Shown in pieces: positions 3,301-52,091 of a stretch of DNA of 64,000 nucleotides. The stretch comes from Leptasterias polaris (taxonomy: Eukaryota > Echinodermata > Asteroidea > Forcipulatida > Asteriidae). A program made the translations under genes and the position numbers. The notes below the pieces were generated by a model that saw nothing but the letters and a program-made list of their open reading frames with translations, was not told where the DNA came from and searched no databases. Where the stretch lies: assembly GCA_037783415.1 (NCBI GenBank), contig JAZGTN010000089.1, positions 3,906,001 through 3,970,000 of the forward strand, in the 5' to 3' direction. Every line of letters starts with the position of its first letter. Within the stretch, counting starts at the first letter, position 1.

Positions 3301-6300
3301 AACTTTGGAATTTTCTCATTTCTCATTTGACCAAACGAGTACAGAAAATCTGTTAGCATGGGTGCGTGTCAATTTGACACAAAATGACCTATTGAAAAAA
3401 ATCCTGAAAAATCTGCATTTATACCATCATAAAGAGCATGGATAATTGCGAGAACATAACACATGCTAAATTGCTACCTGTAAAGATGGAACTAGGTAAA
3501 GGCTACAGCACCCATCTACTGTATCTCAGGCTTTGCTGCTACGCCTCACTGATGAGCTTAAGATGATTTATGTGCATAACAAATACCTTAAAATGATACA
3601 TTGTGCATTCACGCAGTATGCACGTGGCACCAACATCTCTTAAATTGTCAACATAAAAATAAAATACGCACAAAGAAAACAGTTGATTTCACAGTTGCCC
3701 ACACCCCCATGCACTGTGCGTACATACATAACTGTCATATAATTATGCTTGTTTAGGGGCCATTTACTTCCTATAGTTTACACAACCATTCTTTATATCA
3801 CATGTTAACACAAACCGCTTGACCAATCAGAGTGCATAAACTCTCGAAAGAATCTATGAGTATTAACGATCAATAAACAACTGCTGCGGTTGTGAAATAT
3901 TATCATGTGTTAACTGCAACTGAAATTCACATTATAAAGAACTGTTATATAAAGAAAAACAAATTAACAAAATAAAGCAACTATACCTGGTTCACACGTG
4001 GGGATTGCACGTATCCATTCACCTCTCTTGTTGCATTTGTTGAAAGGAGACCCATGTAGAGTGTAACCTTCAGTGCAGTTATGATACACCTTTACACTGG
4101 CAGCGACAATTGTACCCACTGTAAGATCTGTATTCTTACTTAGGTATACTGTTAAGTTAGGAACATCATAGACCTCACATGCTGCAAAGAATTGGAGAAG
4201 CAAAGACACAGAACAAATTAAGTGATTGTAAAACACTGTATAATTTCCTTGAGCAAGTCATTAATGACTGATAATGTACTTGTACAATAGACCGATCCCT
4301 TACTGCAAGGACCAATCACACTTGTAAACGTGCATTCAAAAGTCTGACAACAGTTACAAAATGAAACTAGACTTAACTTTTTGTTGTATAACAAAAAGAA
4401 GGTGTTCGGAATGACGTTCAATTTGGTAGTAACACATCCCAGTTTGAATACATGTAAGCTACATTTCAGCTTGACCAAGCATACTACTCAGTATATAGCT
4501 CTTGAACCTGCACCTTTAAGGTGACGTCATGTCACACTCGATGACGTCATCGTGGTGTGAACAAATTTGTTGGATGTAACATATCACAACTTGGATACAT
4601 GCAAAGTTTCAGCTTGATTACCCAAGTCGTTCTGTACTTATAAATCTTGTAAGAACTAGCAGTGGCTCAAATTTAATTGAAAAAATTGGTAAACATGACT
4701 CTGTTAGAAATTTGTACGATAAGTTTTTATCAAAAGTTAGTGAATGAAACAAGAGTTTCTTCCTTCCATTGTTTAAACCCAATAAAGTTATAACTTTTTC
4801 CGTGCAATTTGGACTTTATGTATTACATACTGAAGTACCTACTCATATCACGCATAGAACTGAAGCAGCACAATGACCTCACTATGTCCCGAGTTTACAT
4901 TAATCCACTAATCCCAAAATGTTTGTAGCGCCCGCTAGAGTTGACTTTTGAATTGCGAGTTTATTTACTTAATTGGTGTTTGGACGGCCATTGGATGGAA
5001 GTATAATGTTTCTTGATATGATCGGCTGGTTCCCTTTACTTGTTTTTATAATGATCACATAACAATTATGAAATAATCGTGTACGATTTTTTTCACAACA
5101 ATGCTTACATGTTTAGAATGATAGAACATAAGAATCAAGTGTTTGATGGGCGTGAGGGCATCGATCTGCATGCTAGTTTCCATGGTAGTCGCTTTGGAAT
5201 CAAAACCCATTATTTTTGAATGATTATCCACTTGATTACAATCCTAAAGATGTTATTCAAAATAATAAATAAAGCCGCCACACTTCCTGTGTATACGAAT
5301 GCAACAATTAAAAAGTCGTTATTTATCGACAAAATTGGACCTGAGTATTTCCCTTCTTTTCTCAGTCTCATTTGCACGGGAGAGAACAATATTAATCGGT
5401 CAAAAACTGAAGTATAACAAGGCACTTCTTGTTTCGACCGGAAGTAGAGGTAACGTAATGTCACACACACAATACAAAAATAAGACCTAAATTAATTTGG
5501 TATAATCCCGCAAAAAGCAACCTACGGTCTCATGTCCGTGATTTGATATGGAAGTTCAAACATTACAAAATTAATATTTAAAAACCTTGTAATTTGACAT
5601 CCGATGAAGTCATGATGATATCACTGCAGCGGTGTCATCTACCTATGCATATCTAACTATGTGTGAAGATTAAAGTTTATGCGAGCTTAGGAAGTGTCTT
5701 TTTTTATTGGACAATCTTGAGGGAAAAGAAGACGACGAGATATGAATTCATGAAATGTTCAACTTTTGGTTAAAAAGCACACGATCAAGCATTTGTTTGT
5801 TAATGAGGTTTGCATGGACGGCTGTTTTAGAGACTAACAAAGCGTATTGTCAAAAGCAGGTTGCGCGAACCTTGAACAGAGACTAGACCACAAGCATGTT
5901 TGATGGACTTTGAACCTTGCGGATGATTTGCTCAATGTATACACACACACTACGTGATAAAAAACAGTAAACTGGTTTAGTTCGCGTAGTGTGTGTGTAG
6001 CCCGTGGTTTGACAGCGGGTCAATAAATACACGTAATAATTGGTCAATATTTCAAATATTTGTATAAAAAAAAGGAATGACGTCATCATGTTGTTTCTTT
6101 AGATTTACGTTGTCACTATCACTGTCTTTCAACATGCCAAGTTTCAACTCAGTCGAACTTGTGGTTTTGTAGATACACGGCTTCAAAAAGTAAACCTTTA
6201 AGGCGATACCACGTGACACATGATGACGTCATCAATATAAAACTTCACACATATGTTGTCTGCATGAAGGTCATTATATATACCAATTTTGAAACGATTA

Positions 6301-9300
6301 TCATAAACTTCGCCACAGACATCTAGTAAAAGTGTATTTTTAATTGTTTTCAACCTGCCGCTAGAGGGCGCTCTTGACATTTATGACGTCACTTATCTTA
6401 TTTTGTTAAACCAGACTCTTGCTCGACTATAACACCGTTAAAAAAAACTTCAAAAAGTGTGCCACTTTTAAATTACGAGGCACTTCCTGTTTCTTCCTGT
6501 TTCGACCGGAAGTAGAGGTCATGTGAGGTCACGCACACGACAAAAAATAAAGACCTATATGACCTAAGTATGATCCCGCATAAAACAACCGACGGCCTCT
6601 TAAGTGTGATTTGTTACAGAATTTCAAAGATTAATTTATTTTTTTCTAAAAACCTTGTAATTTGACACCTGATGACGTCATCATGACGTAACTGAAACGG
6701 TTTCGTCTCCTAATGGTTATCTATCTACATGTAAAGTTTCAAGTTTATATGAGGTTGGGAAGTGTGCTTTTGTTAGCGGACAAGGGACGGCCAGAAGCAG
6801 AAGACGAAGTAAAAAAAACAAAAAAACCCGAACAATAACAAGAGGTGTTCGGAGCTACGCTCCGCTCCGAACACCTAATGAGCAAACAGTCCTTACTTTT
6901 GAATGGTCCAAAACCAAAGACTTCCACCTCACATAAAGTCATCTCTGATTCTCTTGTGCTTGGCATTGGCAACCTGATGGTTATATATTGACCATACAGA
7001 TCCTTTGAAGCACAATCTACTTGAATGGGTTGCTGAGATGCTGTTTCTTCACTGATCTTTAGGGGTCCACATTGTCTCGATGTTGCTCTTTCAGTGAGTC
7101 CAACATCTATAGAAGCTTCGGACAGTCTTCCCTCTGAAAGAAATAAAAGGGTACAAAATCATAATCTGCAGAAGAAAAAAAACATTTCAAGAAAAATTCT
7201 ATTGGAATTTGAAAACAAGGAATATTCAGAAGCAGAATGCATGTTAGCCAACATGTCTATGCAACTCCTATCAGTGATTTAAGACCAGCAAAACACACCA
7301 CGTGGTCAGGTTTCATCCGATCAGAATAAATAAAATATCATGTTTCTTACCACAGCAATGTTGTTCTTTGTAGATATCAACAGATTCAATGATATAAATT
7401 CCCTGTAAATCCACCTGCCAGAATAGTTCATTTCCAGCCATTCCTGCATTACAGTAAGAAGAAAAAATCCTTTTGTCACCAGCACATTTGATTCAATCGA
7501 CTAACATTTATAAGACAATTCACTCATCATGTAACTGATATTCTCATACAGTTATTACTGAACACTGGTAGTGGATGAGCCAAATCAGGGTTTGTCCTGA
7601 ACTTTTCTAGTGACTGGTCAGCAGGACCACTTAGCTTGTCATTTCACTAGTACATCAGCTTTTTCACTAGTCCATTATTTCAAATGAAATAGGGATGCTT
7701 TTCAACACTGAACTAGTCAGCCGGACCACTTGAAGTAAATTTTGACTGGTACTCGGGTGTTTTAACTGGCCTCTGGCCAGTGGACTACTGTTACTGGAGA
7801 ACGCTGCAAATGCCATTATATACCTACCAGTTGTAGTTATCTAACTTGAAGTATACGTGAAGTATGAACCCGGTTTAATAGAGCTGACTCAACATGTAAC
7901 CTCTATTGTTGTTAATGTTGACATACTCACCAACATGAGTGCAACTTCCATGGTTGATGTCTGAATTTCGGTCCCCATCTACTGCTAAGCTTGCATTCCC
8001 AGTAATGCCTCTAACGGAGGTATCACTTTGCACTGCTGGCTTTCCATAAGCAATATTGAACGATGCATCTTTGGAATAAGCGATTACAAACAAGCTTTAG
8101 TACATTAGGATAAATGATTGTTGTGTGTAAAAGCGTGTAAAGGTTCTGCAAGAAAGACACAACATTGTTGTTATTTCTAAAAAGGCCATATATCCACAGA
8201 TGTTCTTTACATAAGATTTGTCTAACACATGAAAACAATATAGATGGATGTTTGTATAGCAAGTCCACAGAACATTCCAAGGACCAGCATTGCGTGGATA
8301 TGTTTGTTCTCAGATCCATCCAGCATTTGTAATTTTACAAACTTTATAATAATAATAATATAATAATAACTAGTTCCAGGGAATTTCCAGGGATATTTTC
8401 CTAGGAATTGGCTCTCGATGGTGTAAAAAGGGCTTGTAAGAAATTAAACCTCCAGTGTTCTTAAAGGCAAAATATAATTCATAAAATGGAAAATTCAGTT
8501 TGTGAATTACTAACAAAATGACTTATTATTGTACTATTTACAAACCATTGGGAATGCATTTGGGGTCCGGAACCCAGTGCCCTGCATGACAATGAATTTG
8601 GCCATCTCCAACACTTGGCTTTAGACCAGTGATACAAGTAACATCAGCTGTCTGTCCATTGTTGACACCCTTCTTGGAATTTCTGATGGTTCCATTTACG
8701 ATACTGAAATCTTGACAAGGATCTACAATGAAAAAGAAAAACAATTCTATTTAAAATATAAAAAATACTAACAAATTGGGTCTCATCACCATGTTAACAA
8801 TGCAAAAGCAATTTTGTCTTGGCAAATCAGCTGATTTGGTTGACAGTTAGGGAGAGGTGAGTTTATAAGAGATTGAATGAATGAAGCTTACTTGGTTGAC
8901 ATTTACGGAGAGGTGAGTTCATAATGAGACATTGAATGAATGAAGCTTACTTTGTTGACAGTTAGGGAGAGGTGAGTTCATAATAGATTGAATGAATGAA
9001 GCTTACCTTGTTGACAGTTAGGGAGAGGTGAGTTCATAATAGATTGAATGAATGAAGCTTACCTGGTTGACAGTTAGGGAGAGGTGAGTTCATAATAGAT
9101 TGAATGAATGAAGCTTACCTTGTTGACAGTTAGGGATAGGTGAGTTCATAATAGATTGAATGAATGAAGCTTACCTGGTTGACAGTTAGGGAGAGGTGAG
9201 TTCATAATAGATTGAATGAATGAAGCTTACCTTGTTGACAGTTAGGGAGAGGTGAGTTCATAATAGATTGAATGAATGAAGCTTACCTGGTTGACGGTTA

Positions 9301-12300
9301 GGGAGAGGTGAGTTCATAATAGATTGAATGAATGAAGCTTACCTGGTTGACGGTTAAGGAGAGGTGAGTTCATAATAGATTGAATGAATGAGGCTTACCT
9401 TGTTGACAGTTAGGGAGAGGTGAGTTCATAATAGATTGAATGAATGAAGCTTACCTGGTTGACAGTTAGGGAGAGGTGAGTTCATAATAGATTGAATGAA
9501 TGAAGCTTACCTGGTTGACAGTTAGGGAGAGGTGAGTTCATAATAGATTGAATGAATGAAGCTTACCTTGTTGACAGTTAGGGAGAGGTGAGTTCATAAT
9601 AGATTGAATGAATGAAGCTTACCTGGTTGACGGTTAGGGAGAGGTGAGTTCATAATAGATTGAATGAATGAAGCTTACCTGGTTGACGGTTAGGGAGAGG
9701 TGAGTTCATAATAGATTGAATGAATGAGGCTTACCTTGTTGACAGTTAGGGAGAGGTGAGTTCATAATAGATTGAATGAATGAAGCTTACCTGGTTGACA
9801 GTTAGGGAGAGGTGAGTTCATAATAGATTGAATGAATGAAGCTTACCTGGTTGACAGTTAGGGAGAGGTGAGTTCATAATAGATTGAATGAATGAAGCTT
9901 ACCTGGTTGACAGTTAGGGAGAGGTGAGTTCATAATAGATTGAATGAATGAAGCTTACCTGGTTGACGGTTAGGGAGAGGTGAGTTCATAATAGATTGAA
10001 TGAATGAAGCTTACCTTGTTGACAGTTAGGGAGAGGTGAGTTCATAATAGATTGAATGAATGAAGCTTACCTGGTTGACAGTTAGGGAGAGGTGAGTTCA
10101 TAATAGATTGAATGAATGAAGCTTACCTTGTTGACAGTTAGGGAGAGGTGAGTTCATAATAGATTGAATGAATGAAGCTTACCTGGTTGACGGTTAAGGA
10201 GAGGTGAGTTCATAATAGATTGAATGAATGAGGCTTACCTTGTTGACAGTTAGGGAGAGGTGAGTTCATAATAGATTGAATGAATGAAGCTTACCTGGTT
10301 GACAGTTAGGGAGAGGTGAGTTCATAATAGATTGAATGAATGAAGCTTACCTGGTTGACAGTTAGGGAGAGGTGAGTTCATAATAGATTGAATGAATGAA
10401 GCTTACCTTGTTGACAGTTAGGGAGAGGTGAGTTCATAATAGATTGAATGAATGAAGCTTACCTGGTTGACGGTTAGGGAGAGGTGAGTTCATAATAGAT
10501 TGAATGAATGAAGCTTACCTGGTTGACGGTTAGGGAGAGGTGAGTTCATAATAGATTGAATGAATGAGGCTTACCTTGTTGACAGTTAGGGAGAGGTGAG
10601 TTCATAATAGATTGAATGAATGAAGCTTACCTGGTTGACAGTTAGGGAGAGGTGAGTTCATAATAGATTGAATGAATGAAGCTTACCTGGTTGACAGTTA
10701 GGGAGAGGTGAGTTCATAATAGATTGAATGAATGAAGCTTACCTGGTTGACGGTTAGGGAGAGGTGAGTTCATAATAGATTGAATGAATGAAGCTTACCT
10801 TGTTGACAGTTAGGGAGAGGTGAGTTCATAATAGATTGAATGAATGAAGCTTACCTGGTTGACAGTTAGGGAGAGGTGAGTTCATAATAGATTGAATGAA
10901 TGAAGCTTACCTTGTTGACAGTTAGGGAGAGGTGAGTTCATAATAGATTGAATGAATGAAGCTTACCTGGTTGACAGTTAGGGAGAGGTGAGTTCATAAT
11001 AGATTGAATGAATGAAGCTTACCTGGTTGACAGTTAGGGAGAGGTGAGTTCATAATAGATTGAATGAATGAAGCTTACCTGGTTGACAGTTAAGGAGAGG
11101 TGAGTTCATAATAGATTGAATGAATGAAGCTTACCAGGTTGACAGTTAGGGAGAGGTGAGTTCATAACAAGAGGTTGAATGAAATAGGCTTACCTGGTTG
11201 ACAGTTAGGGAAAGGTGAGTTCATAACAAGAGGTTGAATGAATAAAGCTAATATATACCTGGTTGACGGTTAGGGAGAGGTGAGTTCATAACAAGAGATT
11301 GAATGAATGAGGCTTACCTGGTTGACGAAGTTAGGGAGAGGTGAGTTCATAATAGATTGAATGAATGAGGCTTACCTTGTTGACAGTTAGGGAGAGGTGA
11401 GTTCATAATAGATTGAATGAATGAAGCTTACCTGGTTGACAGTTAGGGAGAGGTGAGTTCATAATAGATTGAATGAATGAAGCTTACCTGGTTGACAGTT
11501 AGGGAGAGGTGAGTTCATAATAGATTGAATGAATGAAGCTTACCTGGTTGACAGTTAGGGAGAGGTGAGTTCATAATAGATTGAATGAATGAAGCTTACC
11601 TGGTTGACGGTTAGGGAGAGGTGAGTTCATAATAGATTGAATGAATGAAGCTTACCTTGTTGACAGTTAGGGAGAGGTGAGTTCATAATAGATTGAATGA
11701 ATGAAGCTTACCTGGTTGACAGTTAGGGAGAGGTGAGTTCATAATAGATTGAATGAATGAAGCTTACCTTGTTGACAGTTAGGGAGAGGTGAGTTCATAA
11801 TAGATTGAATGAATGAAGCTTACCTGGTTGACGGTTAAGGAGAGGTGAGTTCATAATAGATTGAATGAATGAGGCTTACCTTGTTGACAGTTAGGGAGAG
11901 GTGAGTTCATAATAGATTGAATGAATGAAGCTTACCTGGTTGACAGTTAGGGAGAGGTGAGTTCATAATAGATTGAATGAATGAAGCTTACCTGGTTGAC
12001 AGTTAGGGAGAGGTGAGTTCATAATAGATTGAATGAATGAAGCTTACCTTGTTGACAGTTAGGGAGAGGTGAGTTCATAATAGATTGAATGAATGAAGCT
12101 TACCTGGTTGACGGTTAGGGAGAGGTGAGTTCATAATAGATTGAATGAATGAAGCTTACCTGGTTGACGGTTAGGGAGAGGTGAGTTCATAATAGATTGA
12201 ATGAATGAGGCTTACCTTGTTGACAGTTAGGGAGAGGTGAGTTCATAATAGATTGAATGAATGAAGCTTACCTGGTTGACAGTTAGGGAGAGGTGAGTTC

Positions 12301-15300
12301 ATAATAGATTGAATGAATGAAGCTTACCTGGTTGACAGTTAGGGAGAGGTGAGTTCATAATAGATTGAATGAATGAAGCTTACCTGGTTGACGGTTAGGG
12401 AGAGGTGAGTTCATAATAGATTGAATGAATGAAGCTTACCTTGTTGACAGTTAGGGAGAGGTGAGTTCATAATAGATTGAATGAATGAAGCTTACCTGGT
12501 TGACAGTTAGGGAGAGGTGAGTTCATAATAGATTGAATGAATGAAGCTTACCTTGTTGACAGTTAGGGAGAGGTGAGTTCATAATAGATTGAATGAATGA
12601 AGCTTACCTGGTTGACAGTTAGGGAGAGGTGAGTTCATAATAGATTGAATGAATGAAGCTTACCTGGTTGACAGTTAGGGAGAGGTGAGTTCATAATAGA
12701 TTGAATGAATGAAGCTTACCTGGTTGACAGTTAAGGAGAGGTGAGTTCATAATAGATTGAATGAATGAAGCTTACCAGGTTGACAGTTAGGGAGAGGTGA
12801 GTTCATAACAAGAGGTTGAATGAAATAGGCTTACCTGGTTGACAGTTAGGGAAAGGTGAGTTCATAACAAGAGGTTGAATGAATAAAGCTAATATATACC
12901 TGGTTGACGGTTAGGGAGAGGTGAGTTCATAACAAGAGATTGAATGAATGAGGCTTACCTGGTTGACGAAGTTAGGGAGAGGTGAGTTCATAATAGATTG
13001 AATGAATGAAGCTTACCTGGTTGACAGTTAGGGAGAGGTGAGTTCATAATAGATTGAATGAATGAAGCTTACCTGGTTGACAGTTAGGGAGAGGTGAAGT
13101 CCAAACCCCATTATTGCAAGAATGATCTAACACATTCCCATCCAGGCTGTAGCCTTCACTACATTCAAATGTCCTGACTGTACCATGGTGAGGATTTTCA
13201 CCCGAGTCATAGACCACCCGACCATGTGGCAAACTTTCATTATCGCATGGTTCTGCAACCAAGAAACAATATCAAATATCACACAATACTTCATCATCAA
13301 AAAGCAGTCTCATTTCCAGCTTGTTATAAATTCGGCTTCAGAATTTGCTCGTGTACTAATCGAGAATCCTTGAATAGAACAGTTAGGATGACTCAGTAAT
13401 GATTTGTGCTCCAACGAAAAATAACATTGGAACCAGCTACGAGAGACTGGCCCAAGATTGCATTTACCTTTTATTTAATTGTTTTCTCTGCTCATTAATC
13501 TTTTCATGAACCATGTATAAAAAAAAATAGTTTATCATCTTTCAAGAATTTGTCGACCAAAGAGTAAATAAATACATACTAGGCTGGCAGACTGGTGGTG
13601 TATGTTGAGACCATATGCTATAAGAACAAGACATAGTAGCGCTTTCACCATGCCGTTCGTATCCATACAGGCAAGTATAAGAAGCTTCTGTACCATGAGG
13701 GATCATCAACACTGACAGGTTTACTTCTGGTTCATAAGATACGACACCATTAAGAGGATCATCAAGCCTGCTACAAGGAGCTATCCAAAACAAACAATAT
13801 GACCACAGTTAATTTAAGACAAAGTTCATCTGCAGTTTTTCCTAATATCTACCTTAATACATCTTCAAAACAAATTTCAAACAGGACTTTTCAAAGATAG
13901 ACAGAATTTTGTTTAAAACAACCAGATATCAGTGGCAATTAAGCGATTATTACTCTAAGTTTCATGCAATGTACTTTTAACTCGGGAGAGGAGGTAGGTG
14001 GGGAAAAACAAACTGCTATGGGATTGTTACTGATGCTGTAAGGTATATACATGTACCTGCTTCACATTTAGCATGAAATGACCACTGCCCGTTTTGGGGG
14101 TCATGCAATTAATAGATTGTGTAAATATAAGAATCTATCACAACCTGGGGATTCTGTGCTTCAACTTTTGAGGAGACTTGATAAATTTAGGCGTTAAAGT
14201 TGGCCCTATTTGACCGGGGAAGTGGAGAAGTGCTTCACGAAAACTGGCAGCAAGTCGGTTTTGGAAAAAACAAAAAAATCGTGTTTTTTTCTTCTGGGGT
14301 AGTTAGCAAAAATTCCAAACGGCTGACCTGCCAAAAATTGAAAAGAATTCTGAAGTTTAGTTGTCCGGAAATATGTCTGATTGGTTTTCAAGAGGCTGAG
14401 AGACTTACACGATTTTTTTAGTATTTTTGAATAATTATCATTTAGCATTGGTTCCTATGGGAGATTATTTAGTGTAGTGCGCCCATATGGCGCGCTTCTA
14501 ATCCAATATGGCGAATTAACGATCTATTGGCGATTTAACGATCATTATAGTATAGATAAGCTGGAGAGGCCTAAGCACAAAGAAATATAACTCCTGTGAA
14601 TAGATTATCCCTTTATGAAAGAATGGGGAAAATGGTACATGATATTTGTTTGTCTGTCCGAGAGTCGTACAAGTTTATTGTGTCGTCTTAAGAACAATTA
14701 TCTTCGAAAGGGGTCCACTTCATGAGCAAGACCTCACAAACCGCAGGAGCTTGTATTATAAGTATAGGTAATGAAGAAAACCATCGATGCACATGACGTG
14801 TTATCTTTGCAAAACTTTTTTTGGTTTAAACACAGGCTCTTTGCAACAAGGATATCTGGTCGAACAGTTGTACACCAAGAGTCAGCGATTCTTATCAACA
14901 AGGTCAGACAACATTAGATGGTACCATGATGTACCAGCTGAAGTGAAAGTGAAAGCTGCACGTATCCGGGTTGATTTCCCACGATCAGTTGCACTTTGCC
15001 CTCTGAAACACTTATCTAAACACTCAAATTAATGGACTACGCACATGGATAAAACGCTTTTCATAGCATAAAGCGCCCAATCCGAAGACAACGTGCCCCC
15101 TGCATGTGTGTGGTAGTTGTACTTGTTATAATGGCGGTAACATCACTTATTACTCAGTAATTAACAATTTGTTTCATTTGTCTACCAATGATTGATTTTC
15201 TGCTAGTCAAGATGGCTACAGTTTTCGTCAAAGACATTGTCAAATCATTTACACTTTAAACTCTCTACTCGATGAAATCATTCGTGACAATGTTGATCAC

Positions 15301-35100: not shown

Positions 35101-38100
35101 GACAGCAGAAGGTGTTCCGCAATGGCCACTCACAGTGTGTCGAGGGAACATTTCATCCAAATATTTCTCAAAAAACATATTTATCTATTTGGAAAAATAA
35201 CGGAAGAGGATAGGGAGGGAAATGGGTGAACTCAAGCTATGGTTAATGAGGGATGAACAAGAAAGGTACATTTATGGCATTAGTGAATGGGTCCAGGACG
35301 AATGTTGGCATGTCCCAAAAGCATACTGTTCTCCTTTATAATTGTTTGTAACTTGAGTTGTTCCCTAAAATTGAATTTATTTCCCAGCTCCCTCAAAGTC
35401 ATAACTTTCTAGATGCGCACTGCCTGATGCAAGTGTGCAATAAATTGCCATTGACTACCAACGTGTTGTTTATGTTCATTTTAATACAGCTAGTATACAA
35501 TGCAACAATCCAGGTAATATAACGGGCGGTGATTGGACATTGGTCGCACATGACGGAAGAAGCACCAAGACGAATAGCAAGTTTAGTCCCAACACAAAAA
35601 TAAGCATCACATGCAGTCCTGGTTTTGTACTGGTAGGAAAACCGCAAGTCATTTGTGGAATGGATGGAAGTTGGAATATACCAACGTGTGAAGGTAAGTT
35701 TCCTCAACAGTAACTTGTTTCCCCCCTACAAATGTCTACATTAGTAGCCGGCTCTGTTAACAATATTTAAGAATGTCGATGAGTAATTTACAAGTTTTAT
35801 CAACTTCGTAGAGATCCGGTGTCCACCGCTTAATGAGAGTATTCCCCACGGAAACAGTGAAATGATGAACAGGACGTACAAGCAAGGAGATGTAGTTGAC
35901 TACTTCTGTGATACTGGCTATCGGATCTTTGGCAGTACAACCAGAGTTTGTTCTCTTCACTCCTCGGAGGGAACGTGGTCTCGCCTTAATCCTGTTTGTG
36001 AAGGTAAAACTATACCATCGTTTTATTGGATTCTATGATCCTTGGTGTTGGCATCTTTTGGGGTCAAATCAGTTTCAATTTTTTAATTGACGGTTTATTA
36101 TGATGAGTTTTTTAAAGGTGTCGCATCCTCATGCCATTGTTTCTTTATTGTCTTGTTTGTATTATTTGTCATAATGGTTTATCCTTAACCAACAACAACA
36201 AAAACAAACTAAAATGTGGTACTAATTAATAATATGTTTTCTGTTTACAATGTTACGTGTAACCAAAACCTTGATTTGTTATTTGCAGAGATTGTTTGCC
36301 TTCGTCCCAGTAGCATCCAATATGGAGACTTTTATTTGGAATCAAACAGTATAGGGGGTAAAGTGACATTCTATTGCAGATCGGGATACCGGATTAGAGG
36401 CTCAGAAGTCAGACATTGTCTTCCTAGTGGTAAATGGAGTGGAGAGCTGACATCATGTAATCATGACAGTAAGTCATTCAGGATATCAAAAAACTAGAAT
36501 TGAATTGAATTTATCTCAGGTCCCGTAGTTTTGGGAGGTGGGGGGGGGGGGGTAAGAACTTGTTGATAAGACTTTTCATAAACTTCCAAAAAGGTTGTAT
36601 ATTTGATAAAGTAAGAAAAACATCTGAGCTTGAATACACTTCACTGAGAGAAACAATAGTCACTGGTGCATTTCCAATAGGATTAGGAAAACATTTTATT
36701 TGTAGTATGCCATGTTGATAGTGAAATTCCTGCTGTTTAGATACATTGTATGTATAGCATATAAAAGAAACTGGGCGGGACATACATGTATCTCAACAAA
36801 ATCAGTTTTTTGTTTTAAAAAAGGCTCATTTAGTGAAGCTTTTACATTTTGTTGCAGTTTAATAAAAAATCTTCAATATGGTATGTCATTCATCTGGCAG
36901 GTTTTTACTGTCCAAATCCTGGAGTACCAATGGGAGGGTATATGGAAAATCAAGAGACAGCAAACTTCCAGAAAGGAGGAGTGGTGAGGTATGCATGTCA
37001 CTCAAATCGAGCTTTGATTGGTTCTGCAGAACGACACTGTAATACGTCTAGAAGTTGGTCAGGAGAAGAACCTAAATGTCGAGGTACAGTGTAAGATGAA
37101 GTGGCAGTAGCACACTACAATTACTAAACAGTACACACCTGACTGGCAGTACCACACTACAATTACTAAACAGTGCACACCTCACTGGCAGTAGAACACC
37201 AATTACTAAACAGTACACACCTCACTGGCAGTACCACACTACAATTACTAAACAGTACACACCTGACTGGCAGTAGCACACACTACAATTACTAAACAGT
37301 ACAAACCTGACTGGCAGTGCACACTACAATAACTAAACAGTACAAACCTGACTGGCAATAGCACACCACAATCACTAAACAGTACACACCTGACTGGCAG
37401 TAGCACATTACAATTACTAAACAGTACATACCTGACTGGCAGTAGCACACTACAATTACTAAACAGTACACACCTGACTGGCAATAGCACACTACAATTA
37501 CTAAACAGTACATACCTGACTGGCAGTAGCACACTACAATTACTAAACAGTACAAACCTGACTGGCAGTACCACACTACAATAACTAAACAGTACACATG
37601 CACCTGACTGGCAGTACCACACTACAACTAAACAGTGCACACCTCACTGGCAATAGCACACCACAATCACTAAACAGTACACACCTGACTGGCAGTAGCA
37701 CATTACAATTACTAAACAGTACATACCTGACTGGCAGTAGCACACTACAATTACTAAACAGTACAAACCTGACTGGCAGTAGCACACTACAATTACTAAA
37801 CAGTACACATGCACCTGACTGGCAGTACCACACTACAACTAAACAGTGCACACCTCACTGGCAATAGCACACCACAATCACTAAACAGTACACACCTGAC
37901 TGGCAGTAGCACATTACAATTACTAAACAGTACATACCTGACTGGCAGTAGCACACTACAATTACTAAACAGTACACACCTGACTGGCAGTAGCACACTA
38001 CAATTACTAAACAGTACACACCTGACTGACATATCAATCAATACTTAGCACAACGTTAAGCACACAAGACGCAAAGCACACAAGACATAAGTGCTCCCCA

Positions 38101-44100: not shown

Positions 44101-47100
44101 TGGGGAGTAAAACCCAGTGCTGCCAAGAAAGCCTATGTAGTAATCACAAGACAAGCTCCGTCCTCATCCAGGTATCTGTTTACCTGGGTGAAGTGAAGCA
44201 GCTATGGTTAAGTGCCTTGCTCGAGGACACAAACTCATGACTGGGGTTTCCACCCACACCCACACACTATGATGGTTCGGGCAACTGTTGTGTCCATGTA
44301 GTTTTGTTCATGGGACTCCAAATCTGGTGACAAAGCCTACGAACTTGGTCCAAATATGCGTGACAACAGAACTTGGTTCTTATGAGCTTCAGTGAGCTAT
44401 ATGTACGTTATTTGCAGTACATGCTGCATAATTCTCGCAGTGAGATGCTTTAGAAGATAACAATTTTAGGGCTACAAATCTAATCCTTACTCAGACGACA
44501 ACAAAAATGCAATAAGCTTAGCCAATATGTGACTTTCCGCCACAGCTTGACACTGCAATTTATTTAAGTGCTATTAATACCTGCAATTAAACGCCAAATA
44601 ATAACACTATATAAAACAACAATTTGTAAAATGGCAAGGAGCCGGATACCGGACCTAGGGCAAACCGGCTTGAACAGACGAACAAAACATACATGTACTG
44701 AAGGACAACCATAAACGTACCAATGGCCACACCAAGGACTACCACGCACTTACCAAAGTGGCCACACCAAGGACTTACCAACATAAGTGACCACACCAAG
44801 GACTATACCGAGCCCTATCCAAAGTGGCCACACCAAGAGGGGGGTACCACATCCTTACCAACATAAACAGCTGAGCTACCTAGGACATTACCATTAATTA
44901 TAAACGATAAAAAGAGAGAAGTGTATCCCAGTCCTAGTAACACATCATAAATTCCCCAAGTTGGAAAACGAGGGGGACAGGTAAGATAGCCCGACCGAAA
45001 CACGGATGGCACTATCGTAAGAAAAATTACATAACCTTGGCCATTACAACTAAAAATTACGTGATACACTTTTACCTACAAATGAAATTATAAGACCTTT
45101 ACTATTTTTTGTAATTTTCTGCAAAAATCTGCCCTTTCAAAGGTGGAGCCATAGGGGAGGAGGCGGGTTATAAAGGTTGACTTAAATCACAAGCTGTGAC
45201 AAAGTGACGCTAAGCAAGAACAATTTCCCTCAAAAAGGGTAACAAACGACCTGCCAATATTGTGCTCTCATTGGCTGACCTATTTAACTTGAGGACCTAT
45301 CAAATCGTTTTCGCCACTATGCCTATGCTGAATGGTTGTTGGCCCGATCATCTGGATCCGCCAAACCAGTATAAATACATTCACACATCACAATTGCCAG
45401 AATGGACCAGAACGTCCAACCGTCAACACAGTGACAGTACATGCACATCATCAGCCTGATCCATCACAGATGCATGGCACTGCCGATCCAAGCATGAACG
45501 CACAGACTAGGAGAAATGTGCCGAGTGTAAAACATTTGATCATAAAATTGATAAAATGAACTGTCAATATGTTTTAAAGCTCAAGTATAAAAAGCACAGG
45601 GTGTTGTTTATTTGTTATTTTACAGGGAGACTTCTTCTGTGGTGGCACCCTTATTGCTAAGAATTGGGTTCTTACTGCAGCTCATTGCCTGACAGAGAGC
45701 AAGTCCTGGGATGGTATCAAGGTGTATACAGGTACATACAATTTACTGTCTACCCGCATGAGGATGTTTTCAAAGGCATCTCAATTGCAATTTTATTATT
45801 TTGACTTTGGAAAAAAACAGCTTGTTTTGCTTGTTTTGCTTGTTTTGCATAACGTGACTGGGTCAAAACTACGTCTGATTATTGTGCAGACCGCATACAA
45901 GTATTTGAGGAGATTTGCAGGTTTGCATGGTGGAGGTTCTTATACTATAGTAACTCTTTGTGTAAAACTTTTCAATTAGTGCAGGGTTCTGGGAAGAACG
46001 TAGGTTTACCTGACACTTTGAACATGCTCTATTCATCATCAACATTACATAGTGTACTGCATGGCTTTCTATATGAATTGCTCAGTATCACTGTGTATTG
46101 CATGGTTCTCTATTTGAATTGCTCAGTATCACTGTGTACTGCATGATGCAGGGTTCTCTGTTTGAATTGCTCAGTATCACTGTGTACTGCAGGGTTCTCT
46201 ATTTGAATTGCTCAGTATCACTGTGTACTGCACGGCCGTTCCGCAGTATTAAAATGTGCACGCCCTCAGTGTTCACGCTGCGTCCAGTTCATTCTGACAA
46301 GTTACGCGCGCGCGACATTTGCAAGTTTATGTTTACACCTGAAAAAGGTCACGTTTTGTGATTTGCATATCACCATTTCCTTAAATTTCATTGGTCGCAG
46401 GAATGTTTTGAATAAAAATAGTGATAATTCTCATGAATATTCATCTGATTAATCCTTACTTGGATCTCCGAGGTCAATTCAGCCATGTGAGCTGCAATCC
46501 AGGGGCCACTGCGTACGGGGTGTCATGGTGTCGTCGTTTTACTATTTTGGCGTGCGAATGACGTGCAAAAGAGTGTTATTTTATGGAAATAAGAGTTTTC
46601 ATCAACAAAATCTGACCACAGATGTTTAAAAGAAGCATACTCCAAGCCAATCAGGATAAAAGAAGGTAAAAGACAGCGGGATGATTTGTGATATTAGAGA
46701 TTTTGTTTGGTTATTTTCCAACGTGTGAAAAATGATCTTTCGTTTATTATGTACATTCAATACACTATAATATACAGAGGCTACGTAGAGTTTGCATACG
46801 TTCATTTTGTACATCGTTGTGTCAGTGTCGGGATATTTTCATGACTGATTTCAAACTAGCCTAGGCCCTATGATTTAAGTTGTTAGGCCTACTGTATCTG
46901 TGTTTTCAAAACAATTTTTTACTAGGGTATATATTATAGGCCTACTTTTTTGAATGAAAACTGGAAAAAATTTCATTCTACATGTACATACAATCCTCCG
47001 ATCCATCATGCCAACCCAAATGCAAATAATAATATACTAAATCGTGATTTGATTCTGGTCCCTGGGTGTCTGGAATAACACGTTTCTTGAAGTGAACTGT

Positions 47101-50100
47101 TACGTCCTGTGGTGGTATGGCTTAATTAATGGACATTATGTTTTTTTATTGGGATTGCTGATAATTAAACATTTTCTTATTTTCTCGAAATTACACAGCC
47201 ACTGTCGAACTCGAACCCTGCCAGTGCCAGCTTACCAAAGCAGAGAGGACTATAAGTAGGCCTACATGTGAAGGTGAGTGACTATTCCAAGTAAAATTGT
47301 AACGCTACACTAGTCCGACTTGTATTTTCATTTTGAAGCCTTTAAACTCAGCTGTGCTATTCATAATTTTGGAAATTAAAAGTCTTGCTGTGCATGTACC
47401 CCCCCCTTTGGCAAATTTGCATGCATATTATTTACACTATCTTGTCATCATGTATCATTCAGCTGTTGAAAACAATTGTTTAAGTTTGATGTGATCATGA
47501 TATGATGTATTTGCACACAAAATATTATAGCGTAGTAAATTAATACCCAACTTGAACCTTGCTTAAAAACAATATTTGTGTTATTCTTCTATTTTTGCTT
47601 TTTTTCTACATGTGATGACTTTGGCTTGTACTTCTGGAGTGGTTGACAAGTGGTGACGTCGCATTGTTGTCATGAGACGCTGTACAACACGACCTGTCCT
47701 GTTGAACTCGGTGTGTATGAGCTCGCCTCCTTGCTCATTGAGGAGGCCAAACCCAACACCAAACCTGGACAGCTGTTCAACGGCGTGGTTCTCCAATAAG
47801 TGCATCTTTGGTGTGATGCTGGATTCAGGGAAACTCTCTCGGTAAGATGCCATGAAGACCTTGATACACATATCTGCAACAACAAAAAAAACATCATTAC
47901 TCTGGACTGGTATTAACATTGGTACTTCACAACAAAAATTAAATGGAGTTGAGTAATTACCAATGCGGTTCAAGTCATCTGGTGATAATGCCCTCCTATG
48001 GTTTATCGCAAAGTGTGCATCGGCAAATTTTAGGAAAATATCCTCGAAAGTAGACCCCAATTTAGCTGCTTCTCTGATGAGTTCTTGCTGATGTTTCAGT
48101 GGAATGTCATCGTTGGATACACTTTGAAGGATTCTGGGGGGTCCGCTTTTGGTGGATTTTCGAGGAGATTTGATTGAGCTGTGAGCAATTTTCTGCACAA
48201 ACAATGGTTGTAAAGATGAGATGTAAAAAATGGATTGTCATAATTTGTGTTAGTATAAAACAGCATCATTGAATACAAAATGTACTATTTGTAAATTTGT
48301 AAATTTTGACTTAGTAATGTTTAAATGTGTTTACGTTTGGGTGTTTGTGTTGGCATTAAGCAGAAATTATGTGTTTGATGTTCTATTTCAGAAGCTAAAT
48401 CCTAACCATCAATATTTTTATTATTATGAAAATGTTTATTAAGTACATAATTTATTGATGGCTGTGGTATGCGAATGATGTAAATTTGACTTGTACACTT
48501 GTAAAAAGTATTTAAAGAAAATAATAATTAATAACAATGCAAGTTGTTTTACAATACATACCCGGCCTGGTGTTTTCAAGCGCACATCGTTTCCCTTGTG
48601 TGCACTAAGCTTTAACCAAGTCCAGCGATCACTGACTTCTTCAATTTCTGCTGGGATAGGTGTGCCTCTGCTGTGTTCCACTGCAACTTGCTTGAGAAGG
48701 TTTGCAGCCTTTATAATCTCATCTCTGTGTATTTTAACTGTGCTTGTCTCGGGATATGTTTGGATGGGGTTTGCTGATTTTGAACACAAGTCACAGTTAC
48801 ATGATGGTGTTTTATCCTTTTCTGGACAAACATGGTCAGCCATTTTGGACAGTTTACCTATTGTTCCGCATACTGTGCAAACTGTTGTCAATGTGCTAAG
48901 CTGAAGCCTCAAAATTCGGGGTGATGATGTGACGTTGTCATGATTCACACTAACTTGACATACAGGGCAGGGAACGGTGTGACTGCCTCGAAAAACGAAC
49001 CACTGCTCTAAACATGAAGAACAGTAGTTGTGTTCGCATTGAGTTTGCACAGAAGGGGAGCTCAGGATACACTGGCATATTGCACATATGAAAATTGTCT
49101 CCACTGCCTTCTCTGTGCCAAGAATGTCGAGATTTGGGGGAACTGTGTACGCAGAATCATTAGTCGCAAAGTTAAACAGATAACTTTTCTCACAGTCCTG
49201 TTTGTTGAGGCTCGGTGGATTAATGTTCGGAAGACCTTTTCCAGTACGATTTCTCTTAACAGGGCGACCCCCCTTAAGTACTTTTTCTGTACTGCTCACA
49301 TGTGGTGCATGTTCCAGATCTTGAGTGAGTCGGCCATTCGTCAGTAGTTTTTTGTGTAGCAGATGAATATTCAAATTCCCTAGTTTGTTGTTTACAATGT
49401 GTCAAATTACGCACACACCTCCAGCATAATTTATTCGGATGCCTTGTTGAATCATCGAGCCAGATATTTATACTGTACAGTATTTCTAATTCCTTTCTGT
49501 ATTGTGCACAATCCACTGCCACATATGAATTATTTGTATTTAATTTTGTGCACACACGACACAACTTATCAAGTGCTAATTGATGAAACTGCAATGTATT
49601 CATATCTGGAAAACTTCCTGTAAAGATGTCATCGTTGCAATAAAGTGTTTACCTTGAAACAGTGAATCACAGTAGTATTGCAGTCTGTTTGTTCAACACA
49701 TCTTTATTTGAGAGTCTGTGTTTGACGATCGCGATACGAACGTAAACAACATACTGAGTAGTAGTCATAGAGCTATGGTAGTAGTACATAGATCTTTTTA
49801 CTACACTAATCTACGTTTTGCATCCCGCGCGCTATTGACGTGTTGGCTGTGGAGGTGCGCGGTGCACGTCTGCGACTGTGTGTACATTTTAATAGGAGTT
49901 TTACGTGATTTTTTGTTCATCTCCGTGAAAAACACACTCTTAAAAATCTATTTCTTGTAAATATGCCCGCTGTCTTGTTTTATTCGTTTGGGCTTTAGGG
50001 AAAACAAGTATATTTTTTTCAAGAAATTGGCTCCACTTTATCGGGAAAACCCAGAATTTTTATTTTGGGACATTTTAGAATCAACAGTTTCTCACTATCT

Positions 50101-52091
50101 TCGGGAATTCACGTCCAGTTACCAGGGTGGAAAAACCCTCATATTTTATATTTTTCCTCACACATTATTACTCTCAATAAATAAAAGTGATCGATTGAAA
50201 GTGTTTATGATAAATTATGAACAAATAACTCGAAAATCAATTGGTTATGTATGGACAATTCAATGTAATTATCGTTTTTTTATTCAACGTTAACGTTGAG
50301 CCTCCGCCATTTTGGAAACGGATTGTTGTTTCATTACTGGAGGAAACGTTTGTTCGTTGCGAAATCTTTTAATGCGCTGTGTTAATGGGCTTGATACGGC
50401 CGTGACTGCGGGGTTCTCTATTTGAATTGCTCAGTATCACTGTGTACTGCAGGGTTCTCTGTTTGAATTGCTCAGTATCCTGTGTACTGCAGGGTTCTCT
50501 ATTTGAATTGCTCAGTATCCTGTGTACTGCAGGGTTCTCTATTTGAATTGCTCAGATATCACTGTGTACAGCAGGGTTCTCTATTTGAACTGCTCAGACA
50601 TCACTGTGTACTGCAGGGTTCTCTATTTGAATTGCTCAGTATCACTGTGTACTGCGGGGTTCTCTATTTGAATTGCTCAGCTACTGTGTACTGCAGGGTT
50701 CTCTGTTTGAATTGCTCAGTATCCTGTGTACTGCAGGGTTCTCTATTTGAATTGCTCAGCTACTGTGTACTGCAGGGTTCTCTATTTTACGTGTACTGCA
50801 GGGTTCTCTGTTTGAATTGCTCAGTATCCTGTGTACTGCAGGGTTCTCTATTTGAATTGCTCAGCTACTGTGTACTGCAGGGTTCTCTATTTTACGTGTA
50901 CTGCAGGGTTCTCTGTTTGAATTGCTCAGTATCACTGTGTACTGCAGGGTTCTCTGTTTGAATTGCTCAGTATCACTGTGTACTGCAGGGTTCTCTATTT
51001 GAATTGCTCAGCTACTGTGTACTGCAGGGTTCTTTATTTGAATTGCTTAGATTCACCGTGTACTGCATGTTTCTCATTTTGAAATGATCAGTGTGTACGT
51101 TATTTAGTGAAACAATGAGAAACACTGCACAATGTTTCACTGCCGACTAATTAAATGATGATTCATTTGCGTAGGTCTAACTGACATGAGTTTAATCCGA
51201 GCGGACACCACAGTGTATGAGGTTGATGGTAAAGATGCTTTGATAAAACATGAGAATTTTAGTTCGACTTTTTTGGCTAATGATATAGCGCTTCTGAGAT
51301 TAAAAGGCTATTCTCCTCTCAGCCAAGAAGTAAGGACTATCTGTGTTCCACAAGAAGATATGACAGGTAAGCTCCACAACCTTTTATCACATGGGCCTCA
51401 AACCTCAACACATTTTGTCTACTATTTAGAAACTTAAAGCCTATTTGTGTTGCTTCATAAAAAAATTACCTTTCCCTGATTTTCAAAATGAAGGCATTTC
51501 CACGTTCCACCAAATGAGAATTAAATAAAATGTAGTTTAATTGGTATTGTTCTGTTGCAGTAACTTGTCATTGATCTTGTATATTTTCAAACCAATATAA
51601 TTGATTAGATGTTCGTTGTTTTACTCATTTTGTTAGATGAATCCCTTTACTCACCGCATGGTGTTCATCCATATGTGACAGGCTGGGGTGTGGCAGAACC
51701 GTATGAAACAGATTGTCACGGCAAAACTGACCAAACTCCCACAGATCTCCTCCAGCAACTTCAAATTCCGTTAGTCACCAATGAAGCATGTAACGCAAGT
51801 CTTGCAGGAAAAAAAAGTGCTTATCTTTGTTTTAACGAATTTGATTTCAAAAGTGATGTACAATTTTGTGCTGGAGATCTACGCGGTGGCCTGGATGCAT
51901 GCAAGGGTGACTCTGGGGGACCAATCATGAGGGAACTTTCAATGAGTGATGGGAGTACAAGATGGGTACAAATTGGTATTGTCAGTTGGGGTGAAGGATG
52001 TGCGCAGGAAGGGAGATATGGATTTTACACCAGGCTTTCCAGATATTTTGGATGGATCCAACAACATGTTGGAAATTCCATTTTAATATAA
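26113..52091 (+). CDS. bf: Complement factor B/C2 homologue
   Basis: Coding exons: 26113-26173, 31344-31475, 33311-33379, 34971-35144, 35490-35693, 35812-36003, 36289-36468, 36901-37083, 38407-38642, 40079-40232, 41224-41343, 42929-43150, 43528-43649, 45626-45731, 51175-51366, 51637-52091. They join in frame to 933 codons plus stop. Domains: signal peptide (1-20), CCP1-6 (~21-398), basic linker, vWA (~430-640) with MIDAS DASGS, conserved Thr and SDG, then a trypsin-like protease with His (TAAHC), Asp (NDIALL), Ser (GDSGGP) and the S1 Asp (DACKGDSGG). In the family, factor B binds C3b through the CCPs and vWA domain, is cleaved by factor D in the linker, and its Bb part is the C3 convertase protease. 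Secreted, acting in coelomic fluid if an echinoderm. Vertebrates have three CCPs; echinoderm homologues are known with more. Anomaly: the CCP2 exon lacks a GT donor. Overlapping stop/AATAAA at 52089-52096; a further AATAAA near 52329. Confidence 0.93.
26394..28480. repeat. ~165-bp tandem repeat interrupted by an insertion, in bf intron 1
   Basis: The unit GATAGCAACCGTGGACCTAT ... CCCGGTTTGAATGTGG ... ACACACACAC ... TGTGTAACAGCCTGCAATCG recurs at about 26394, 26558 and 26723, and resumes at 27482. The array is broken at 26864-27478 by ~615 bp of unrelated sequence flanked by CTTT on both sides (possible 4-bp target duplication). The insert starts ATTTATTTATTACATTTCTT, followed by TACCCAGGG. 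Confidence 0.65.
30974..31060. repeat. Poly-G / poly-C inverted run
   Basis: A G run of over 30 bases is followed after 16 bases by a C run of over 20 bases, then GCCCGGTTCCGCCGCCGGTG. It may form a hairpin or G-quadruplex. Related heads (CAGTGGCGGCG plus a G or C run) lie at 24411 and 28493, so this is a repeat family. Exact run lengths may be assembly artefacts. Confidence 0.6.
31344..31475 (+). CDS. bf: bf exon: CCP1 first half
   Basis: Encodes IGCSEPVVDRAHIEFS, a linker and VISVQCSMGATMEG. It holds Cys1 and Cys2 of a Sushi domain that is split by an intron. Phase 1-1. Confidence 0.82.
31985..32075 (-). repeat. tRNA-like SINE head
   Basis: The minus strand shows box A (AGCTCGGTGGTGGTC) and box B (GGTTCGAATTT) with a near-cloverleaf between them. 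The acceptor stem does not pair well. Treated as a SINE head in a bf intron, not a tRNA gene. Confidence 0.5.
32625..34930. repeat. Duplicated segments flanking bf CCP1b and CCP2 exons
   Basis: A ~250-bp element (start CAACGTCACAGCCCGAGTTT) occurs at 32745-33012 and 34650-34930, the second copy ending just before the CCP2 acceptor. A ~95-bp segment (GTAATCTGTGTTGGTAAGAG) occurs at 32657 and 33057. A 143-bp tandem duplication lies at 33642-33927 (GGGAAGTAAGAGTCCTCAGT). Confidence 0.7.
33311..33379 (+). CDS. bf: bf exon: CCP1 second half
   Basis: Encodes GNRFLSCLETDTWDTLPTCT, giving Cys3, the Trp and Cys4 that complete CCP1. Phase 1-1, 23 codons, donor CAG|GTAAGT. Confidence 0.82.
34971..35144 (+). 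CDS. bf: bf exon: CCP2, lacking a GT donor
   Basis: Encodes IKCPTLPELWNGN, VSCNTGFRLLG, IKCAMTAEG and WPLTVCRG, a complete four-Cys CCP after a strong acceptor (CCCCCTAACAG). The expected phase-1 end is CGAG at 35144, but the next bases are GGAACA, with no GT at or near the border. The nearest GTs (35135-35138) would drop Cys4 and break the frame. Because the exon is 174 nt and symmetric, skipping it would leave a five-CCP protein in frame. Confidence 0.7.
35490..35693 (+). CDS. bf: bf exon: CCP3
   Basis: Encodes QCNNPGNITGGDW, ISITCSPGFVLVG, VICGMDGSWNIPTCEG. Phase 1-1, 68 codons, donor AAG|GTAAGT. Confidence 0.88.
35812..36003 (+). CDS. bf: bf exon: CCP4
   Basis: Encodes IRCPPLNESIPHGN, VDYFCDTGYRIFG, RVCSLHSSEGTWSRLNPVCE. 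Phase 1-1, 64 codons. Confidence 0.9.
36289..36468 (+). CDS. bf: bf exon: CCP5
   Basis: Encodes IVCLRPSSIQYGDF, VTFYCRSGYRIRG, HCLPSGKWSGELTSCN. Phase 1-1, 60 codons, donor ACA|GTAAGT. Confidence 0.9.
36901..37083 (+). CDS. bf: bf exon: CCP6
   Basis: Encodes YCPNPGVPMGG, VVRYACHSNRALIGSAERHC and WSGEEPKCRG. This CCP closely resembles CCP3 of vertebrate factor B (CPDPG ... VRYRC...L.GS.ER.C...WSG.EP.C), which identifies the gene family. Phase 1-1, donor GAG|GTACAG. Confidence 0.92.
37112..38035. repeat. 42-bp minisatellite in bf intron
   Basis: About 22 copies of a 42-bp unit (CACACCTGACTGGCAGTAGC, ACACTACAATTACTAAACAG, TA) with deletions in some. As 42 is a multiple of three, open frames run through it on both strands; these are repeat artefacts. 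It lies between the CCP6 and vWA exons. Confidence 0.92.
38166..38360. repeat. GGGCCCAATTT palindromic MITE, degenerate copy
   Basis: Shares GGCCCAATT-CATAGAGCTGC, AATGAGCAGGATACCAGTCA and GCTTAAGCAGCTCTA with a better copy at 60078-60271. It lies just upstream of the bf vWA exon. Confidence 0.65.
38407..38642 (+). CDS. bf: bf exon: linker cleavage site and vWA MIDAS
   Basis: Encodes a linker with RPRSKGRSIDLTYSGG and then YDIYFAFDASGSITKPHF. The basic SKGR just before the vWA domain sits where factor D cuts vertebrate factor B. DASGS is the MIDAS DxSxS metal motif needed for Mg-dependent C3b binding. Phase 1 in, phase 0 out. Confidence 0.92.
40079..40232 (+). CDS. bf: bf exon: vWA part 2
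   Basis: Encodes IGVSTARYAACIYATRTLPS, then SVEDVQERIDSLADLRGSND. Helix and strand pattern of the vWA domain, equivalent to the YATYP segment of vertebrate factor B. Phase 0 in, phase 1 out. Confidence 0.85.
40441..40805. repeat. TTAAAGG-ended MITE, copy 1
   Basis: Ends TTTAAAGGTATTATACA and TGTATAGGGCCTTTAA form imperfect inverted repeats. The ~365-bp body includes ATTATCGCGCGCGATAAAA. Close copies lie at 59338-59700; diverged ones at 59696-60068 and ~55150-55400. Confidence 0.7.
41224..41343 (+). CDS. bf: bf exon: vWA part 3
   Basis: Encodes GTGTATGKALQFIHENMIP, then RHRPGAKKVLFLFSDG. It carries the MIDAS Thr (GTGTATG) and Asp (SDG). Phase 1-1. Confidence 0.92.
42929..43150 (+). CDS. bf: bf exon: vWA part 4
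   Basis: Encodes RTNEGGSVAPSKKQAEILR, VQIHCIGVTHEVDISELQDI, ASKPLSEHLFLIADYRELN. Matches the final strand and helix of the vWA domain (FGVG ... LASK ... H.F....). Phase 1-1. Confidence 0.9.
43528..43649 (+). CDS. bf: bf exon: protease domain N-terminus with activation site
   Basis: Encodes YSKCGYNGGPKKAV, then AKGRISGGEDAPLYQWPWQV. The R-I-S-G-G motif is a conventional serine protease zymogen activation site. Phase 1 in, phase 0 out. Confidence 0.92.
44252..44788. repeat. Intron segment duplicated at 53756-54298
   Basis: The stretch from ACACTATGATGGTTCGGGCA to GGACTTACCAACATAAG is ~97% identical by eye to a segment downstream of bf. The upstream edge is the tail of a SINE (GAGGACACAAACTCATGACTG). 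Confidence 0.8.
45626..45731 (+). CDS. bf: bf exon: catalytic His
   Basis: Encodes GDFFCGGTLIAKNWVLTAAH followed by CLTESKSW. TAAHC holds the catalytic histidine with its disulfide partner Cys (FFCGG). Phase 0 in, phase 1 out, donor CAG|GTACAT. Confidence 0.95.
47199..47273 (+). other. Exon-like cassette inside the RAG1-like element, sense to bf
   Basis: ACACAG acceptor, 75 nt open in phase 1-1 (ELEPCQCQLTKAER ... RPTCEG), then GAAG|GTGAGT. It would insert 25 residues between the bf catalytic His and Asp exons without a frame change. No family similarity; this may be chance. Confidence 0.25.
47581..49603 (-). pseudogene. RAG1-like gene: N-terminal zinc/RING region joined to RAG1-type C-terminus, no DDE core
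   Basis: Exon blocks 49603-48562, 48192-47961 and 47873-47581, GT-AG borders, phases 0 and 1. Features in order: CRVC...CWRC zinc pair (49566-49420 region), TCTTCEQ second zinc knuckle, basic KGGRPVKRNRTGK, a C3HC4 RING (CAIC ... CEHNYC..C ... PCPVC), a further zinc finger (CTVCG...HVCP), then after the first intron a region ending in PKMHLLENHAV and FGLLNEQGGELIHTEFNR. The order matches vertebrate RAG1. The last block aligns with the segment around its third catalytic residue (Glu in ASEGNESGNK). The segment carrying the two catalytic Asp residues is absent; only a 369-bp intron is present there. A frameshift lies at an A5 run (49282-49286): the first frame stops just after, and the second continues with the basic motif. 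Probably an inactive, non-autonomous copy. Family assignment is strong for the N-terminal half and moderate for the C-terminus. Confidence 0.75.
51175..51366 (+). CDS. bf: bf exon: catalytic Asp
   Basis: Encodes LIRADTTVYEVDGKDALIKH, then STFLANDIALLRLKGYSPLS and VRTICVP. NDIALL holds the catalytic aspartate. Acceptor GCGTAG; the upstream intron contains the 41-bp minisatellite and the RAG1-like element. Phase 1-1. Confidence 0.94.
51637..52091 (+). CDS. bf: bf last exon: catalytic Ser
   Basis: Encodes YVTGWGVAEP, QFCAGDLRGGLDACKGDSGG followed by P, and VSWGEGCAQEGRYGFYTRLS, then a C-terminal helix and TAA at 52089-52091. The Asp six residues before the catalytic Ser predicts Arg/Lys specificity. 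Confidence 0.96.

Follow-up and report, generated by a model that had tools for sequence, protein, structure and literature searches.

The locus

The DNA analysed here is a 64,000-nucleotide stretch of the sea star Leptasterias polaris (the window; positions 3,906,001 to 3,970,000 of contig JAZGTN010000089.1, assembly GCA_037783415.1, or C89:3906001-3970000 of the 629.7 Mb and 334 contigs that we searched), in which a 4174-bp transposable element lies in an intron of a predicted immune gene. Host exons on the plus strand match the Pfam domains Sushi, VWA (23.3 bits, cut-off 23.8) and Trypsin, which is the domain composition of complement factor B; the gene is named by this order of domains. 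The element occupies the intron between the two Trypsin exons, on the strand opposite to the host gene.

45608..45745, plus strand: host Trypsin-domain match with the active-site His (TAAH)
46052..46230, plus strand: 41-bp minisatellite, left part of the target (tandem-repeat row 46052-46236, running 6 bases into the element)
46227..46230, no strand: left target site duplication, ACTG, 4 bp
46231..46239, plus strand: left terminal inverted repeat, CACGGCCGT, 9 bp
46231..50404, minus strand (the strand of its gene, opposite to that of the host gene): the inserted element in full, 4174 bp, with 100% identity to two copies elsewhere in the genome (L023, L024)
50396..50404, minus strand: right terminal inverted repeat, ACGGCCGTG, 9 bp
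50405..50408, no strand: right target site duplication, ACTG, 4 bp
50405..51092, plus strand: 41-bp minisatellite, right part of the target
51204..51359, plus strand: host Trypsin-domain match with the active-site Asp (DIAL)

The preliminary description had placed the borders at 46231 and 50404, with inverted ends of 9 bp flanked on either side by ACTG, and had seen the insertion as breaking a 41-bp minisatellite between the factor B His and Asp exons; the borders proved exact, and the repeat rows on both sides together with the TAAH and DIAL Trypsin matches bear out the target. The CACGGCCGT and ACGGCCGTG 9-mers each occur once in the 64-kb window. When the element and one ACTG are removed, the joined unit TATCACTGTGTACTGCGGGGTTCTCTATTTGAATTGCTCAG is identical to the minisatellite unit at 50640-50680.

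Searching the assembly with window positions 45200-46050 revealed an inverted, 85% identical paralogue at C89:3892714-3893204, 13 kb to the left of the window. This locus (L126) contains DNA matching both Trypsin exons with the minisatellite intron between them, and it lacks the element: the joined window flanks and L126 align without a break over 1746 columns (87.9% identity), and neither 9-mer element end is found in it. It is far likelier that the element entered the window gene after the two paralogues separated than that it was cleanly lost from L126, because its divergence from other copies is near zero. As a separate observation on this inverted factor B paralogue, a minus-strand Sushi-like open reading frame (ORF) at window 3967-4257 may be one of its exons.

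Coding remnant

On the minus strand the element carries the following coding features.

48562..49603, minus strand: predicted exon A, with ATG at 49603; zinc-binding Chapa-like region, GGRP, RING and a further zinc finger; homologues P0001-P0011 and P0017
49282..49286, minus strand: frame-breaking run of five A (a T run on the plus strand), four bases long in open-frame copies
48958..49086, minus strand: RING finger (Pfam PF00097, E 9.5e-7)
47961..48192, minus strand: predicted exon B, containing the deletion junction
48135..48136, no strand: internal-deletion junction, with a 2-bp TG common to both sides
47581..47873, minus strand: predicted exon C, with the catalytic-Glu block NEQGGELIHTEFNR, through the stop codon
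47679..47680, no strand: a further 21-nt in-frame deletion (GMRDALQ)

The three blocks (49603-48562, 48192-47961 and 47873-47581) join at GT...AG sites in consistent phases and, read through the single frameshift with an X inserted, give a product of 522 amino acids (aa) with CxxC zinc-binding pairs and a RING. Compared with 7.0-kb copies elsewhere in the genome, about 2.8 kb is missing, and with it the first two catalytic Asp and the CxxC, LH and GNH motifs. In alignment the window protein breaks off shortly after the front part and resumes shortly ahead of the Glu block, which is all that it keeps of the catalytic motifs; the DUF1280 stretch is missing from it. The frameshift and the lost middle rule out that the window copy holds an intact gene. 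Against Pfam PF12560 the window fragment scored 21.7 bits, under the cut-off of 23.3; in a sequence search of PDB, two of the three blocks had no matches and the third had 36, solely to RINGs of other proteins.

A search of 5.8 billion proteins with the window protein returned 17 relatives of two kinds. Twelve match the front part (P0001-P0011 and P0017), the sole named one being P0007 of Asterias, a V(D)J recombination-activating protein 1-like. The other five (P0012-P0016) match the last third; they come from sea stars, are 50-62% identical, and three of them carry DUF1280.

Copies across the genome

The left 33-mer of the element occurs at 67 places in the genome (66 exact and one with a single mismatch; reversed control 0), well beyond what chance would give; this answers the search for further copies proposed in the preliminary description. 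The left end reads CAC at 66 of these and CCC at one. Twenty of the other 66 copies were read in 10-kb stretches and the remaining 46 by short pieces at their ends. Thirteen of the 20 measure 4156-4177 bp and five measure 7015-7038 bp. The remaining two are L011 (5574 bp), a short form with a nested insertion of about 1.4 kb at about 2330-3718 of the element, and L015 (4336 bp), a second internal-deletion derivative that lacks the common junction and retains 21 nt absent from the common short form. Two copies elsewhere in the genome, L023 and L024, are identical to the window copy over all 4174 bp, which, with the empty paralogous site, agrees with the earlier view of a relatively recent insertion.

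Both ends are visible in 64 of the 67 copies, the window's included, and an exact 4-bp duplication flanks 56 of these 64; in L045, L111 and L117 the right end was not seen at either expected distance. Among the 21 copies read whole, 20 have CAC...GTG ends, and L016 differs in its last base. An alternative reading, in which the duplication is 5 bp (ACTGC) and the start of the element lies one base further on, fits the window but was rejected, as it suits 5 of the 21 whole-read copies, whereas symmetric ends with a 4-bp duplication fit 19 of 21. Overlapping or near-identical flanks were observed for L091/L093, L095/L115 and L103-L109 (on C229, C260, C327 and C268), which indicates that those insertions lie in repeated DNA at different positions.

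A 40-mer spanning the deletion junction is present at no fewer than 58 genome places, the window's among them, and a 40-mer of the exon that encodes the first catalytic Asp at no fewer than 7, six of which lie inside L018, L020, L021, L022, L026 and L065. Copies without a left end were counted by these junction and core patterns alone.

The 7.0-kb copies supply what the window copy lacks. In two of the five that were read, L020 and L021, ten exons yield an uninterrupted protein of 981 aa; L018 (974 aa) and L026 (980 aa) are likewise without a stop, and L022 is frameshifted. The 981-aa protein consists, in order, of zinc-binding pairs, GGRP, RING, zinc finger, DUF1280 and the core. The core motifs of L020 and L021 are GGDKGG, GDYE, CCLYC, LHIS, GNHVHK and NEQGGE, and they are invariant or nearly so in an alignment of 40 sequences. 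In a tree of 26 family proteins, the one from this genome falls within the sea-star sequences, as sister to Asterias amurensis P0012 (100/99).

Relationship to Chapaev and RAG1

We then turn to the family to which the element belongs. A profile search against RAG1 families, which the preliminary description had named as the check on its assignment, went the other way: the complete sister protein (L021) matches DUF1280 (E 4.8e-18) and RING (E 4e-6), and has no match to the RAG1 core PF12940 at E up to 1, where the RAG1 control P0092 scores 1269.9 bits. A search with P0014 gave 79 proteins including the query; those that bear a name belong to echinoderms, sponges, cnidarians (Hydra among them), amphioxus, an acorn worm and a mollusc. 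Ten of these, mostly long, were scanned: all ten contain DUF1280, eight have a RING or RAG1-importin-binding match, and none matches PF12940 at E up to 0.01.

A profile of the 12 front-part proteins alone, run with a reversed control, aligns with RAG1 residues 98-382, through the RING (probability 99.5, E 2e-22); with 9 longer proteins included, the comparison reached into the core (probability 99.8, E 5.6e-30). The core-family profile aligns with that of RAG1 over 518 columns with the catalytic blocks lined up. In PDB, P0014 had no match at E up to 10, and a profile built from 40 relatives had 18 at that threshold, all weak, most of them to coiled coils and none to a RAG1 chain. Judging from structure prediction, the core of a brittle-star relative would adopt a RAG1-like fold, and the 981-aa protein is predicted to be a RAG1-fold DDE transposase; by this predicted fold the family belongs to the RAG1 superfamily in the wide sense. 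The model of the front-part relative P0004 matches many RINGs, with RAG1's 1rmd ranking 7th among 16 at E up to 0.001; a RING by itself is therefore not very informative.

Chapaev elements are characterised by 3-4-bp duplications and CAC...GTG ends (PMC4079192); DUF1280 corresponds to Chapaev transposases, with RAG1 and DUF1280 in one clade (PMC3985635); a Chapa domain followed by a RING is found in two Chapaev subgroups (PMC4411706); and Chapaev and Transib are grouped in the CMCT clade, with motifs in common with RAG1 (PMC12730594). Our element has the CAC...GTG ends and 4-bp duplication of Chapaev (CMC/CMCT clade; Pfam DUF1280), and its complete copies have the DUF1280 transposase and a Chapa-like zinc-binding region followed by a RING, the Chapa-like part being judged by the profile against the RAG1 N-terminal region and the sub-cut-off PF12560 match rather than by a Chapa model. 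The window copy differs in being an internal-deletion derivative without the catalytic middle. Set against the literature, the 4-bp duplications, the ends, DUF1280 and the Chapa-like region with RING identify the element as a Chapaev, which is related to the RAG1/Transib line as a cousin and stands outside it. Neither this family nor its 4174-bp form was found in the literature listings and passages that were searched, supplements and Repbase lying outside that search.

The preliminary description had instead called it a RAG1-like transposon and a RAG-family insertion, encoding a protein in RAG1 order. The CxxC pairs, the RING, the Glu block and a distant relationship to RAG1 stand; the order does not, since GGRP precedes the RING here and follows it in RAG1 (P0092: RING 293-331, GGRPR 392-396), and the frame is broken once. 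The corresponding explanation, a RAG1-like (ProtoRAG/TransibSU/RAGL) transposon now stripped of RAG2L and of the greater part of its core, is disfavoured and very improbable. What the element does have in common with RAG1/RAGL is the homology described above, distant over the zinc-binding and RING regions (the RAG1 98-382 alignment) and weaker over the core, the predicted core fold of a relative, and the CAC with which its ends start. Yet RAGL and Transib make 5-bp duplications (PMC7204232), and a 5-bp duplication with symmetric ends was seen in none of the 21 whole-read copies. The core belongs to another sequence family, DUF1280 without a PF12940 match, and no RAG2L gene was found: none of 15 ORFs of at least 70 aa outside the L021 transposase exons matches kelch or PHD, a scan that a gene of smaller exons could escape. 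The RING is present here, whereas the RING region is stated to be absent from echinoderm RAG1L (PMC7204232). The ends resemble those of RAGL little beyond CAC, with no heptamer of the recombination-signal type, for CACGGCC and the protostome RAGL CACTWMC (PMC7204232) coincide in CAC and the seventh base alone. Transib differs as well, by its 5-bp duplications and its lack of N-terminal zinc-binding and RING regions (PMC7204232, PMC4411706).

Origin and spread of the short form

The window copy, L011 and 13 other short copies lack the 21 nt encoding GMRDALQ, which L015 and the five 7.0-kb copies retain. At the run 49282-49286, three of 14 whole-read short copies (the window copy among the 14) have four A's and an open 521-aa frame, and the other 11, the window's included, have five A's and stop after 109 codons. 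Mean divergence is 0.042% among short copies and 0.29% among full copies. This pattern suggests that the internal deletion came first, then the extra A, and then most of the spread. The short copies were likely moved in trans by complete copies, which is the simplest reading because a frameshifted copy without two of the three catalytic acids can hardly move itself. The insertion in the window is a very recent, well delimited, non-autonomous Chapaev derivative.

Taken together, the element is very probably an internally deleted Chapaev, inserted with duplication of ACTG into a minisatellite of the predicted factor B intron and likely mobilised in trans by its 7.0-kb sisters. The ends, the duplication, the empty paralogous site, the 58 against 7 places and the two uninterrupted 981-aa genes are observed. 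As for the mechanism, the complete 981-aa protein would bind the CACGGCCGT ends, cut both, and join them to the target with a 4-bp stagger, and short copies, which keep the ends and not a working enzyme, would borrow that of the complete copies, much as Ds uses the enzyme of Ac.

Several points weigh against this explanation. Eight of the 64 copies with both ends visible (L016, L023, L031, L055, L057, L073, L113 and L119) lack an exact 4-bp duplication, among them L023, which is identical to the window copy; L016 shows a duplication if its last base is counted as lost, and L031, L055 and L057 have altered right ends. The genome pattern counts of 58 and 7 are minimum figures, and small contigs may represent a second haplotype, there being 64 distinct 25-bp left flanks among the 67 copies. 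Taken alone, the core-family profile comparison with RAG1 is weak (probability 46, E 2e-4), the RAG1-like fold prediction is that of the brittle-star relative and not of the 981-aa protein, and PF12560 does not match the latter at E up to 1.

A different possibility is a separate, self-sufficient 'N-terminal RAG1' transposon, like the N-RAG-TP of Aplysia, for which the short protein would be enough. The excess of the deletion junction over the core exon (58 to 7 places) and the open 521-aa frame in 3 of 14 whole-read short copies would suit it; the other 11, however, stop after 109 codons and have spread nonetheless, complete copies with the same ends exist, and two of three catalytic acids are gone from the short form, leaving this account with very little credence. 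That the element is instead a transposon-derived host gene, domesticated for immunity beside factor B, is extremely improbable: its position in an immune gene and the long N-terminal reading frame still visible would fit, but the inverted ends and target duplication are intact, the window copy is frameshifted, and two copies elsewhere are identical to it over 4174 bp. Chance is the simplest explanation for the location in factor B, since other copies sit in other repeated sequences and elsewhere.

An internally deleted Chapaev of this kind bears on the origin of RAG1. The N-RAG-TP of Aplysia has been described as a wholly RAG1-N-terminal-like sequence and as one half of a two-transposon fusion (PMC8355894); going by that description, it resembles our element in being mobile and in coding mostly for RAG1-N-terminal-like sequence, and differs in that here the origin can be read, a complete element with a DDE core having undergone internal deletion. 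Deletion can hence give rise to elements that code chiefly for the RAG1 front, which touches the fusion hypothesis for RAG1; had N-RAG-TP arisen in this way, the front half of RAG1 would have been part of the ancestral enzyme and never fetched from a second transposon. It is possible, if rather doubtful, that we are dealing with a living or very recently living Chapaev in which one transposase combines the whole non-catalytic front of RAG1 with a RAG1-fold DDE core, that 'N-terminal RAG1' transposons arise when elements of this sort lose their middle, and that the RAG1 front is ancestral if N-RAG-TP arose likewise. Complete genes, exact ends, identical 4174-bp copies and an empty paralogous site in one genome make the role of the RAG1 non-core front testable. 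No laboratory system is known to us in which an active transposon combines a RAG1-like RING front with a DDE core, although no search aimed at this was made.

Other features of the window

Window positions 45200-45560 hold a dispersed repeat: 38 of 40 scored genome matches cover about that stretch, at 84-87%. Several of them form same-strand pairs about 6.4 kb apart (for example C58:4581040 and 4587465, and C4:1870910 and 1877324), which resemble the long terminal repeats (LTRs) of a retrotransposon about 6.8 kb long; on that reading the piece at 45200-45560 would be a solo LTR. Two tandem arrays were also noted: at 37102-38028, between Sushi and VWA exons of the host, a 42-bp unit is repeated about 22 times, and at 8837-13097 a 56-bp unit is repeated about 75 times, its copies being 95% alike.
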